Positions 8,938-60,376 of a stretch of 64,000 nucleotides of DNA are shown here, in pieces. Position 1 is the stretch's first letter, and the number at the start of each line of letters is the position of its first letter. Source of the stretch: Allosphingosinicella indica (GTDB taxonomy: Bacteria > Pseudomonadota > Alphaproteobacteria > Sphingomonadales > Sphingomonadaceae); assembly GCF_900177405.1 (NCBI RefSeq), contig NZ_LT840185.1, positions 1,603,501 to 1,667,500 on the forward strand. Direction: 5' to 3'. Made by a program: the position numbers and the translations under genes. Below the pieces are notes generated by a model. It was given only the letters and a program-made list of their open reading frames with translations, made no database searches and had not been told where the DNA came from.

Positions 8938-9008
8938 CGCGCCCTTCTAATATGGCAATCGCCGCCCGGGGGGCAAGACGGTGGAATGGTTAGCGTGGGG
9001 TGAAGCGT

Positions 9009-9125
9009 CTCTCGACGGCGCGTCTCCGCTTCGCTCGACGCTGGCTCGAGATGAGCGATGTCACGCATTCCCCGCCGCTCATCTCGAGCGGCCGTCGAGC
9101 CCGTCGAGACGGTATGTCGAGAGAC
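9009..9125. repeat. Dispersed palindromic element, family C, rearranged copy
   Basis: Two half-elements lie in tandem. 9009-9057 resembles the right half, and 9075-9125 the left half, of the ~103-bp element present near 53.8 kb and 60.3 kb. The landmarks CTCGAGATGAGCG and CGCTCATCTCGAGCGG face outward compared with the intact copies. It fills most of the clpS-phasin gap, which has no gene. Confidence 0.65.
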
Positions 9126-9899: not shown

Positions 9900-9926
9900 C
9901 ATGAGCGTGCGTAGATTCCCTCGGTC

Positions 9927-10011
9927 GTCACCCTGAACTTGTTTCAGGGTCCATCTGGGAGACTGACGCGATCGTCACCGGCATGGATGCTGAAACAAGT
10001 TCAGCATGACG
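9927..10011. repeat. REPIN-like paired-hairpin element, family A copy 1
   Basis: Two 7-bp hairpins (9931-9949 and 9988-10006, 5-base loops) in opposite orientation flank about 38 bases, bounded by GTCA and TGAC. Copy 2 at 23819-23903 is this sequence inverted, with about five mismatches in 84 bases. It sits between the phaC stop and the phasin promoter. Confidence 0.8.
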
Positions 10012-13307: not shown

Positions 13308-13467
13308 CCCCTCCCCTTGATGGGGAGGGGTGGTGGGTGGCGTCTCCGAAAATGGCGCTTTAATCTCCACCGCCACCCCCACCCATGATCAGGTTTGGAT
13401 TGCCCCGCAATCCAAAGCCATGTCCGGGGGACATGGCGACCTGATCATCTCCCCCATCAAGGGGGAG
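13308..13467. repeat. Palindromic element family D with an internal three-way junction
   Basis: The left hairpin is a 9-bp C/G stem at 13308-13316 with 13322-13330 (loop TTGAT). The right hairpin is 13449-13455 with 13461-13467 (loop ATCAA). Between them a 10-bp stem (13385-13394 with 13439-13448) encloses two perfect 9-bp hairpins (13395-13415 and 13417-13437, 3-base loops). Only single bases lie at the inner junctions. It fills the glpX-recJ gap, and no gene is seen in it. Confidence 0.75.
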
Positions 13468-23280: not shown

Positions 23281-23828
23281 CGCCCGACGCCGACAGGCCC
23301 GAAGAGCTGATGTGGGAGGGCCGCTTCATCGCCGCCAAGCGGCGCGGGCGCTGGGAATATGTCGGCCGCACCCGCGGCATCCGCGCCGCCGTGATCGTCG
23401 CGGTGGATGCGGGCGACGTGCTGCTCGTCGAGCAATATCGCGTGCCGCTCGGCCGCAACTGTATCGAGCTTCCCGCCGGCCTCGTCGGCGATGATCGCGA
23501 AGGCGAGCCGGCCGAGCAAGCCGCGCGCCGCGAGCTGGAGGAGGAAACCGGCTATCGCGCCGGGCGGATCGAGACGATCGGCGAATTCGCCTCCTCGCCC
23601 GGCATGGTCTCGGAGACCTTCACCCTCCTCACGGCGCACGATCTGGAGAAAGTGGGCGAGGGCGGCGGCGTGAACGGCGAAGGCATCATCGTCCACCGCG
23701 TCCCGCTGACGGAGGTAGGGGCATTTCTCGATGCCAAGCGCCGGGAAGGCGCAGCCGTGGATGCAAAGCTGCTGATGCTGATGGCGGGCAGTGTTCTCGC
23801 CACCTCACCGCTCAACCTGTCATGCTGA
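23277..23828 (+). CDS. Nudix hydrolase (ADP-ribose pyrophosphatase-like)
   Basis: 183 residues from GTG 23277, which overlaps the upstream TGA. The Nudix box is visible as GLVGDDREG... followed by ARRELEEETGYR (R-E-x-x-E-E-x-G). The ELPAGL strand and the EFASSPGMVSET segment are typical of ADP-sugar pyrophosphatases. It likely hydrolyses ADP-ribose or a related nucleotide sugar in the cytoplasm. The last codons and the stop are formed by repeat element A2: the TGA at 23826-23828 lies within it, giving a tail ending NLSC. Confidence 0.87.
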   Translation: MTPDADRPEELMWEGRFIAAKRRGRWEYVGRTRGIRAAVIVAVDAGDVLLVEQYRVPLGRNCIELPAGLVGDDREGEPAEQAARRELEEETGYRAGRIETIGEFASSPGMVSETFTLLTAHDLEKVGEGGGVNGEGIIVHRVPLTEVGAFLDAKRREGAAVDAKLLMLMAGSVLATSPLNLSC

Positions 23829-23903
23829 ACTTGTTTCAGCATCCATGCCGGGGACGATCGCGACCCTCTCCAAGATGGACCCTGAAACAAGTTCAGGGTG
23901 ACG
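23819..23903. repeat. REPIN-like paired-hairpin element, family A copy 2
   Basis: Inverted, about 94% identical copy of the element at 9927-10011, of the same 84-base length. Hairpins with TGAACTTGTTTCA and TGAAACAAGTTCA cores lie at each end. It overlaps the final codons of the Nudix gene and reaches to within 11 bases of the convergent complex I subunit gene. Confidence 0.8.
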
Positions 23904-24250: not shown

Positions 24251-26725
24251 CTAGCGCGACGAAGCCTTCTTGGTGCGCAACGTCGGATCGGCGCGGGCGG
24301 GATCGTCGGGCCAGGGATGCTTGGGGTAGCGGCCGCGCATCTCCTTGGCGACCGCGGTCCAGCTTCCCGCCCAGAAGCCGGGCAGGTCGCGCGTCGTCTG
24401 GATCGGGCGTCCCGCGGGCGAGGTGAGGAGCAGGAGCAGTGGCACCCGGCCGCCCGCGACCGCGGGATGATCGGTGAGGCCGAACAGCGCCTGCACGCGA
24501 ACGGTGACGGCGGGGCCGCCCTCCGCCGCATAATCGATCGCGTGCGCGCTTCCGGCGGGTGTGGTGAACTGCTCGGGCGCCAGCCGGTCGATCGCCTTGC
24601 GCCCCTCCCAGCCTATCAGCGCATCCAGCGTCCCCGACAGCGCGCCGGGGTCGATCTCGCTCAGCCTGCGACGCCCCGCCGCGAGCAGCGGCAGCCATTC
24701 GTCGAGCGTTGCGAGCAGCGCCGCGTCCGACAGATCGGCGATCGCCGGATCGTAAGAGCGGGCGAAGGCGCCGCGGGTGCGGAGCGAGCGTGCATTGGCA
24801 CTCCACGGCAGGCGGTCAAGGCCGTGGGCGCGGACGCCTTCGACCAACGCGGCGGTCACCGCTTCCGGATCGGGGCGGCTGTCCTGTCCGCCCAACAGCA
24901 GGATCGCGCCCAGCCGACGCCCGCGCGCCGCGGTGACGCCCCCGGTGGCGGGATCGAATGTGACCGACGCGCCGGTCGCGATCCGATCGGCGAACAGCGC
25001 TTCGACCGTGGCCTCGTCGATCGCAGCGGCGGAGAGGATGCGTGCCCCGGCCGCGGTGCCGCTGACCTCGGCCACCGCCAGCCAAGTCTCGCGCGCCAGC
25101 GGCGACAGCGGATCGAGCCGGAACCCGCGCCCGCCCGCCGAAAGCCAGTCCGCCCCATCGCCGCCCCGCCGCTTGGCAACGCGATCGGGAAAGGCGAGCG
25201 CGACCAGCTCCCCGGCACCCCCTTCCCTGCCAAGGGAGGGGCCGGGGGTGGGTGACGAGCGAAGCGAGCCTTGGGGAGAGGACGCCAGCGCTGCCCAGCG
25301 CCGCGCCAAACCCCGCGCCGCTTCCGCCCGCCGCCCGCGCTCGCTCCGCCAGCGCCGGAGCCGCAAGTCCAGATCGACATCGCTGCCGCCGAGCCCGCGC
25401 TCGGAAAGCAGCACCGCCACCTCCGCCCCCTCGCGCGCGCGGCCGAGCGTCTCGGCCTCGATCAGCATGTGCGCGAGCCGCGGCGGCAGCGGCAGAGCCG
25501 CGATGCGGCGGCCATGCGGCGTCGGGCGTCCGTCTTCGCCGATCGCGCCCAGCGCTGTCAGCCGGCGCCGCGCTTCCGAGACGGCGGCGTCGGGCGGCGG
25601 ATCGATCCAGGCCAGATCGCGCGGATCGGCGACGCCCCAGATCGCAGCATCGAGCGTCAGCGCGGAGAGGTCGGCCTCCAATATCTCGGGCGAGTCGAAG
25701 CGCGGCAGGCCAGCGGTCGCCGCTTCCTCCCACAGGCGATAGACGATGCCCGGCCCCTGCCGCCCTGCGCGGCCCGCGCGCTGGGTCACGGCGGCCTGGC
25801 TCGCACGCTCGGTGACGAGCCGGGTGACGCCCGCCGCACGATCGTATCGCGGGCGCCGCGCGAGGCCCGAATCCACCACGATCCGCACTCCGTCGATGGT
25901 GAGGCTGGTCTCCGCGATCGATGTCGCGAGCACGACCTTTCGCCCGGCTGACGGCGCGATCGCGGCGCGCTGCGCGGCGGGGTCGAGGCTGCCGTGCAGC
26001 CGGTGGAGCGCGATGCCCGGCGGCAGCGGCTCCAACCGCTCGGCGGTGCGCTCGATCTCGGCGACGCCGGGCAGGAAGGCGAGCAGGCTGCCTTCCGTTT
26101 CGCCCAGCGCGCGGCGGATCGCGGCGGCCATCGCATCCTCGATCCGCGCCTCAGCGCGTCGGCCGATATGATGCAGCGTAATCGGATGGCTGCGGCCCGC
26201 GCTTTCTATCACTGGCGAGCCGCCCATCAGCGCGGCGAAGCGCGCGCCGTCGAGCGTCGCCGACATCGCGATCAGCCGCAGATCGGGCCGCAGCGCCACC
26301 TGCGCGTCGAGCGCCAGCGCAAGGCCGAAATCGCTGTCGAGGCCGCGCTCGTGCACCTCGTCGAACAGCACGGCGGAGACGCCCGCCAGCTCGGGGTCCG
26401 CCTGGATGCGGTTGCGGAATATGCCTTCGGTCAGCACCGTGATCCGCGTCGAGGCGGATCGCTTGCTGTCGAGCCGCGTCGCATAGCCGATCGTGCCGCC
26501 AGGCTTCTCGCCCGCCAGCTCCGCCATCCGCTCCGCCGCCGCGCGCGCCGCGAGGCGGCGCGGGGAGAGGAGCAGGATCTCGCCCCCGCACCACGGCTCG
26601 GCGAGCAGCGCGGGCGCCACGGCCGTCGTCTTGCCCGCTCCGGGCGGCGCGACCAGCACGGCGTTGGACCCGCCGCGCAGCGCCGCGAGCAGCTCCGGCA
26701 GGACGGCGTGGATCGGCAGCGTCAC
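24251..26725 (-). CDS. hrpB: ATP-dependent helicase HrpB
   Basis: 824 residues from a GTG that overlaps the stop of the upstream GST gene. It is a DEAH-type superfamily 2 RNA helicase. Walker A is APPGAGKT at 26-33, followed by DEVHERGLDSD, SATLDGARF, a C-terminal helicase domain with QRAGRAGRQGPGIVYRLW, HA2, and the HrpB-specific C-terminus (ALIGWEGRKAIDRLAPEQF and LPGFWAGSWTAVAKEMRGRY). Residues about 482-505 (SSPQGSLRSSPTPGPSLGRE and following) are encoded by an in-frame intergenic-type repeat. The reading frame remains open. Confidence 0.92.
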   Translation of the reverse strand: MTLPIHAVLPELLAALRGGSNAVLVAPPGAGKTTAVAPALLAEPWCGGEILLLSPRRLAARAAAERMAELAGEKPGGTIGYATRLDSKRSASTRITVLTEGIFRNRIQADPELAGVSAVLFDEVHERGLDSDFGLALALDAQVALRPDLRLIAMSATLDGARFAALMGGSPVIESAGRSHPITLHHIGRRAEARIEDAMAAAIRRALGETEGSLLAFLPGVAEIERTAERLEPLPPGIALHRLHGSLDPAAQRAAIAPSAGRKVVLATSIAETSLTIDGVRIVVDSGLARRPRYDRAAGVTRLVTERASQAAVTQRAGRAGRQGPGIVYRLWEEAATAGLPRFDSPEILEADLSALTLDAAIWGVADPRDLAWIDPPPDAAVSEARRRLTALGAIGEDGRPTPHGRRIAALPLPPRLAHMLIEAETLGRAREGAEVAVLLSERGLGGSDVDLDLRLRRWRSERGRRAEAARGLARRWAALASSPQGSLRSSPTPGPSLGREGGAGELVALAFPDRVAKRRGGDGADWLSAGGRGFRLDPLSPLARETWLAVAEVSGTAAGARILSAAAIDEATVEALFADRIATGASVTFDPATGGVTAARGRRLGAILLLGGQDSRPDPEAVTAALVEGVRAHGLDRLPWSANARSLRTRGAFARSYDPAIADLSDAALLATLDEWLPLLAAGRRRLSEIDPGALSGTLDALIGWEGRKAIDRLAPEQFTTPAGSAHAIDYAAEGGPAVTVRVQALFGLTDHPAVAGGRVPLLLLLTSPAGRPIQTTRDLPGFWAGSWTAVAKEMRGRYPKHPWPDDPARADPTLRTKKASSR
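25218..25279. repeat. Family D palindromic repeat inserted in frame in hrpB
   Basis: On the minus strand it reads CTCCCCAAGGCTCGCTTCGC, then a GTCACCCACCCCCGGCC stretch, then the hairpin CCTCCC-TTGGCAGG-GAAGG. It has the same style as the intergenic C/G hairpin elements at 13.3, 21.7 and 45.4 kb. It replaces normal helicase linker codons with a Ser/Pro/Gly-rich stretch without breaking the frame. Confidence 0.6.
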
Positions 26726-45409: not shown

Positions 45410-45493
45410 GGGGTGGGGGTGGGGGTGGAGATCTTTGCGCCTCCCTCGGAGACGCCACCCCACCCCAAACCCCTTCCCATCAAGGGGAGGGGG
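45410..45493. repeat. Palindromic element family D copy between serA and cytochrome c
   Basis: A G-rich left part (GGGGTGGGGGTGGGGGTGG) is matched by CCACCCCACCCC. The element ends in the C/G hairpin CCCTTCCC-ATCAA-GGGGAGGG, which has the same loop as the element at 13.3 kb. The rest of the 266-bp gap holds a short inverted repeat TGGCCATAAGGGTGGCCA (45299-45316) and no gene. Confidence 0.6.
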
Positions 45494-53755: not shown

Positions 53756-53769
53756 GGTAAAGCACCTCA

Positions 53770-53872
53770 CCGCTCATCTCGAGCAAGCATCGAGCGGAGC
53801 CGAGATGCGTCGTCGAGAGATCTCTCGACTTGACTGTCTCGACTTCGCTCGACAGCCGCTCGAGATGAGCGG
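53770..53872. repeat. Dispersed palindromic element, family C copy 2
   Basis: 103 bp bounded by CCGCTCATCTCGAGC and CTCGAGATGAGCGG. The central perfect palindrome GTCGAGAGATCTCTCGAC is at 53812-53829. It is an inverted, nearly identical copy of 60264-60365 (about six differences). It occupies the smc-metallopeptidase gap. Confidence 0.85.
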
Positions 53873-60252: not shown

Positions 60253-60263
60253 AACCTCCCGCC

Positions 60264-60365
60264 CCGCTCATCTCGAGCGGCTGTCGAGCGAAGTCGAGAC
60301 AGACAGTCGAGAGATCTCTCGACGACGCATCTCGGCTGCGCTCGATGCTGGCTCGTGATGAGCGG
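60264..60365. repeat. Dispersed palindromic element, family C copy 3
   Basis: 102 bp, nearly identical to the reverse complement of 53770-53872. It has the same central palindrome GTCGAGAGATCTCTCGAC at 60306-60323. It lies between the convergent HD-GYP and aldo/keto reductase genes. Confidence 0.85.
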
Positions 60366-60376
60366 TTGGATGCTTG

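Follow-up and report, generated by a model that had tools for sequence, protein, structure and literature searches.

A palindromic repeat read as part of the HrpB linker, a site occupied repeatedly by unrelated repeat families in Sphingomonadaceae

Palindromic repeats that insert in frame in conserved proteins have been described in Rickettsia (Ogata et al. 2000, 2002) and protein-coding palindromes in Wolbachia (Ogata 2005); both are reviewed in PMC10969869 and PMC2229807. The Rickettsia palindromic elements (RPEs) are described as encoding a conserved peptide. Two other classes are relevant. REP/BIME elements are linked to RAYT transposases and comprise GTAG- and CGTC-tagged REPs (PMC3733652), and REPs are described as rarely overlapping coding regions (PMC12306157). 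Intragenic MITEs include ERIC, YPAL and the Coxiella QMITE (PMC2229807, PMC10969869). Earlier accounts treated protein-coding palindromes as peculiar to Rickettsia and Wolbachia; the present case concerns free-living, widely cultured Sphingomonadaceae. A search of the open-licence literature found no prior description of repeats inside Sphingomonadaceae proteins or in the HrpB linker.

The window is the whole 64,000-nucleotide stretch of Allosphingosinicella indica DNA analysed here. A sequence-only reading had proposed that an intergenic-type repeat lies in frame within its hrpB gene. The relevant features are:

24251..26725, (-) strand: hrpB, encoding a DEAH/RHA-type RNA helicase HrpB of 824 amino acids (open reading frame, profile and structure matches)
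25208..25284, (-) strand: inserted palindromic-repeat DNA coding most of HrpB linker residues ~481-506, ASSPQGSLRSSPTPGPSLGREGGAGE (alignment gap, genomic repeat, low pLDDT at 485-501); its outer ends are uncertain by a few bases because the closest relatives offer no empty allele
25220..25270, (+) strand: core matching other genomic copies, with 88-90% identity over ~50 nt to C1:1233773 and C1:295035 (search against the own genome)
25220..25241, (+) strand: hairpin module CCCTTCCCTGCCAAGGGAGGGG, compare CCCCTCCTTGGCAAGGGAGGGG and CCCCTCCCTGCAAGGGAGGGG in other copies (copy comparison)
25235..25253, (+) strand: diagnostic pattern GGAGGGGNNRGGGGYGGGT, one of 16 in the genome, at G000:C1:1628735-1628753 (pattern search)
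25256..25269, (+) strand: small palindrome CGAGCGAAGCGAGC, or GCTCGCTTCGCTCG on the coding strand, the inner module of the element (copy comparison)

The identity of the host protein is clear from both profile and fold. It matches the TIGR01970 equivalog with 890.9 bits (E 9e-268) against a cut-off of 546, and the best solved relative is E. coli HrpB, 6heg, onto which the model aligns with a Z of 50 over 773 residues (rmsd 7.4). The reading frame is open throughout the inserted stretch, and the full-length protein is presumably translated. In an AlphaFold2 model built with 24 aligned sequences (mean pLDDT 87.9) the only part inside HrpB with pLDDT below 50 is residues 485-501, flanked by a helix at 465-481 and a second at 504-511, after which come the strands of the following domain. 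By analogy with HrpB and DEAH structures we take that domain to be an OB fold. The insert is predicted, from this model, to form a disordered Ser/Pro/Gly tether linking the helical domain to the OB fold.

Searched against its own genome, a check that the sequence-only reading had suggested, the insert DNA matches many sites, the best with 84-96% identity over 33-51 nt. A pattern search of the 2.8 Mb genome finds the degenerate 19-nt core GGAGGGGNNRGGGGYGGGT at 16 places, one of them in hrpB, against none in a reversed control, which far exceeds chance. Within the window GGGGTGGGTG is found twice against 0.05 expected. Genome matches and core-pattern counts together rule out a chance resemblance of the hrpB insert to the repeats. 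The claim of an in-frame, intergenic-type repeat is thereby upheld, while the proposed likeness to the intergenic elements of this particular window holds in part: the DNA is indeed a genomic repeat, but the CGAGCGAAGCGAGC-type sisters lie elsewhere in the genome. The window itself has a single exact CGAGCGAAGCGAGC and carries only a related sub-family, at about 13308-13390 and 45411-45492. The remaining copies examined in the window genome look intergenic by codon composition, a filter that can give false negatives.

Complete genomic copies span 116-155 nt. They begin with a CCCCTCCC...GGGAGGGG hairpin and a G-rich arm ending GGGGTGGGT, continue through a variable middle that often carries GCTCGC-type palindromes, and close with the same arm and hairpin inverted. 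Nine complete copies include lengths of every class modulo 3. Of their 54 reading frames 34 contain no stop codon, so that an insert of suitable length is easily read through. The copy in hrpB is a shortened version, a point absent from the sequence-only reading: it retains the GCTCGCTTCGCTCG module and a single hairpin and arm, the second hairpin being reduced to remnants. By itself it has ordinary folding energy (z about 0), and hairpin stability fails as a criterion for this copy.

How does the linker compare with that of other HrpB proteins? The stretch between LARRWAAL and VALAFPDR is 27 residues long in the window HrpB and 14-18 in most HrpBs of the family; the median is 18 over 108 sequences, the last 20 of which were picked on purpose from the longer ones. 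It is short in E. coli HrpB, and in 27 alphaproteobacteria of other families it measures 14-19 residues, with one at 25 and no repeat in any. The inserted stretch is accordingly absent from E. coli HrpB, from those 27 proteins and from most family members, whereas its presence in distant HrpBs with unrelated codons would have refuted the sequence-only reading. An orthologue gap of about 24 residues had been anticipated; the alignment gives a net gain of only ~11, because native linker residues are missing. The window copy thus appears, from the alignment, to have both added and replaced linker residues. The nearest HrpB is only ~80% identical to that of the window, which leaves the insertion junction and any target duplication unreadable. 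With DNA that is a genomic repeat, and a stretch lacking a counterpart in most HrpBs, the description of a palindrome turned protein linker stands.

The same linker is occupied in many relatives. Inserts are present in 54 of 164 HrpBs, mostly from Sphingomonadaceae, and derive from at least three unrelated repeat families. The inserted linkers reach 54 residues, with palindromic DNA, and the mean folding z of long linkers is -5.2 against -0.4 for short ones. Typical insert peptides are VPSEVEGRGSISEKRPSTSLGTS (family A), PLPSREGLGVGG...TPPTPGPSLEGRG (family B) and PAKAGAQ (family C). The hairpins of A and B are read in all three frames. Those inserts that were tested repeat in their own genomes, the element of genome G021 at about 40 sites with 85-89% identity and that of genome G067 with 128 matches. 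BLAST of the inserts was used for such counts, the loose family A pattern SWGAGCNNNGTCGANG being too unspecific. The window's own genus has B, A, C or no insert, depending on the species. One HrpB linker of 50 residues (L033, genome G130) apparently holds two repeat families together, the PAKAGAQ type beside a SEVRHSTSLGTN type.

These data bear on the notion of an ordinary low-complexity linker that expanded in a GC-rich gene and resembles the repeats by composition only. Long Gly-rich linkers without repeats do exist, that of L042 for example, but the core pattern is found 16 times against none in the reversed control, identity with other copies reaches 88-90% over 50 nt, and relatives carry complete palindromic copies. 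We regard this explanation as very improbable.

A tree of the 164 HrpBs, built without the linker, requires the insert state to have been gained or lost at least 26 times, and well-supported branches force 20 of these changes. Family A accounts for 17 changes, B for 10 and C for 3; sequences were assigned to families through short DNA motifs, a few labels being corrected by hand, and the counts are approximate. Some of the 26 could reflect a loss, or a horizontal swap of hrpB alleles, and not a fresh insertion. With some twenty or more independent changes seen at a single protein site, it becomes directly testable whether inserts of this kind are neutral or useful, an old question.

Might the mover simply prefer this DNA target, with tolerance being secondary? 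Unrelated families do lie repeatedly in the same stretch of ~18 codons. Insert positions and flanks vary by species, though, no target word common to the flanks stood out, and the families that share the site have different ends; such variation in positions, flanks and ends favours tolerance over site-directed insertion, which we consider decidedly improbable.

The Sphingomonas faeni clade is informative with respect to turnover. Near-identical HrpBs of this clade hold one of two elements, measuring 117 nt and 111 nt, at a shared position. The two have unrelated centres and alternate between very close species (L145 and L154, for example), which suggests replacement or allele exchange; with two different elements at one site in near-identical hosts, the content of the site turns over. 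We infer mobility of the elements from this replacement and from the many independent placements. Measured on the inserts of this clade, constraint is relaxed: pN/pS reaches 0.62 and 0.31 there, compared with 0.07 for the remainder of hrpB, and the inserts are probably close to neutral. Their pS is lowered, at 0.14-0.16 compared with 0.33-0.39, suggesting arm homogenisation or a hairpin constraint.

Four draft genomes of the S. faeni group (L171, L173, L175 and L181; Sphingomonas faeni ERG1.4, Leaf208, S. albertensis and Leaf230, respectively) have a frame-breaking solo hairpin in place of the 111-117 nt element, and in L181 the hairpin loop contains NN. Assembly collapse of two near-identical hairpins is suggested, though a real deletion may be responsible. 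Could the window insert likewise be repeat DNA misassembled into hrpB? These collapsed drafts, one with NN in the loop, lend that idea its support. Against it, the window genome is a single contig, at least 20 independent assemblies have in-frame inserts with different sequences and intact flanks, and the frame is preserved in nearly all. The chance that the insert is an artefact is negligible.

To judge how unusual the HrpB linker is, other proteins can be compared. Thirty ClpA and 30 RecJ proteins of Sphingomonadaceae contain no internal insertion of 8 residues or more; all such insertions in HrpB fall at the one linker. That hrpB is the sole gene ever struck can nevertheless be rejected, as inserts also occur in the ABC-F ATPase Uup and in a Sir2-family deacetylase. 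Besides HrpB, one of the 40 best copies in G021 lies inside the Sir2-family gene and one of the 38 best in G067 inside the uup gene. The former (L319:667-1503, (-) strand) has a near-perfect palindrome of ~70 nt in frame between two Cys pairs (PFVPSEVEGRLSPAPRPSTSLGTNGEG); a stricter coding filter missed this case. Of 30 Uup proteins, four have repeats in the loop that precedes the second ATPase domain and about six have them in the linker leading to the C-terminal domain, and most of these inserts fold as strong palindromes. Carriers are L349/L388 (the G067 Uup), L389, L390, L391, L400, L412 and L416. Uup is therefore a second recurrent host protein. The sequence-only reading had overlooked that the HrpB linker is hit time and again by several unrelated repeat families. 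Among the sampled copies of G021 and G067 about 5% are in genes, a lower bound given the codon-composition filter. In mostly coding genomes this is as expected if gene strikes are purged except in permissive loops.

It is very probable, in our assessment, that non-autonomous palindromes insert widely and that selection removes strikes on genes except in permissive loops that can be read through. Such repeats, belonging to several unrelated families, would insert across Sphingomonadaceae genomes, and insertions in genes would survive only where a tolerant loop, a stop-free frame and an added length that is a multiple of three come together. In the window a repeat would have entered hrpB in frame and displaced part of the native inter-domain linker. 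A resident insert would drift and shrink, as the window copy seems to have done, or be replaced. The HrpB linker is most likely the most permissive site found here, and together with the two Uup loops the most tolerant seen; this would explain how it came to be filled repeatedly and independently, its contents turning over.

Are the inserts instead kept for a function, an RNA hairpin in the hrpB message or the flexible loop regulating HrpB, with the site actively re-filled? HrpB is itself an RNA helicase, the inserts recur at one linker, two different elements interchange there, and ~15 genomes of the S. faeni clade keep near-perfect hairpins with lowered silent divergence. Yet about two thirds of HrpBs (110 of 164) have no insert and their short linkers fold normally, the window copy has lost one hairpin, the peptides are drawn from all three frames, pN/pS in the insert is high, and the low pS can be produced by arm-to-arm homogenisation. 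The loops of Uup and Sir2 being struck as well points to general tolerance. A regulatory role is unlikely on this balance. In a related form, the HrpB linker and the two Uup loops would be functional docking sites that recruit different repeat families, a hairpin or loop tuning the protein; we hold this to be similarly doubtful. Tolerance followed by purging of other gene strikes remains our preferred account.

How do these elements relate to the described classes? Like RPEs, they are palindromic repeats of ~70-150 nt found between genes and in frame in unrelated conserved proteins, where they are read as extra loops, and for neither is a mover known. Complete copies of 116-155 nt and a repeated core fall in the RPE range, and the placements in HrpB, Uup and Sir2, alongside intergenic copies, follow the RPE pattern. 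They differ in that the hosts are a free-living alphaproteobacterial family, the elements are GC-rich and several unrelated families converge on the same loops; nor does one frame encode a conserved peptide, the A and B hairpins using all three. Membership of the Rickettsia sequence family is unlikely, because the host belongs to Sphingomonadaceae and the elements are GC-rich. We conclude that they work like RPEs and do not file them as members, because their hosts differ and every frame is used. That several repeat families converge on the same protein loops seems to be a new observation.

With REP/BIME elements they share the character of high-copy, mostly extragenic short hairpins, complete copies being inverted hairpin pairs with a short spacer. 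A Y1/RAYT transposase (PF01797) is absent from the window genome, though present in 10 of 36 genomes searched and detected in controls such as E. coli, and the flanks of nine genomic copies have no common GTAG or CGTC tag at the hairpin foot. REP/RAYT membership is rejected for the window genome, which has neither the Y1 protein nor the tag. MITEs are likewise non-autonomous, with terminal inverted repeats and occasional in-frame fusions. Target-site duplication and a parent insertion sequence are further MITE features; the likeness here rests on the terminal inverted repeats, seen as inverted hairpins at both ends of complete copies.

On this account, selfish DNA repeatedly supplies new protein stretches at the joint of HrpB, and does so too in the loops of at least two further proteins. 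The inserts mark out naturally the places where HrpB and Uup tolerate extra sequence. We caution that an annotator could take such a loop for a domain, or its gene for a frameshifted one.

The window contains other palindromic DNA. A separate repeat family (CCGCTCATCTCGAGC ... TCGAGAGATCTCTCGAC) has three copies, at 9008-9100, 53760-53872 and 60259-60375. Positions 9926-10011 and 23819-23903 are 85-nt inverted copies with CTGAACTTGTTTCAG hairpins, 94% complementary, one of which sits at the 3' end of an open reading frame ending at 23828.
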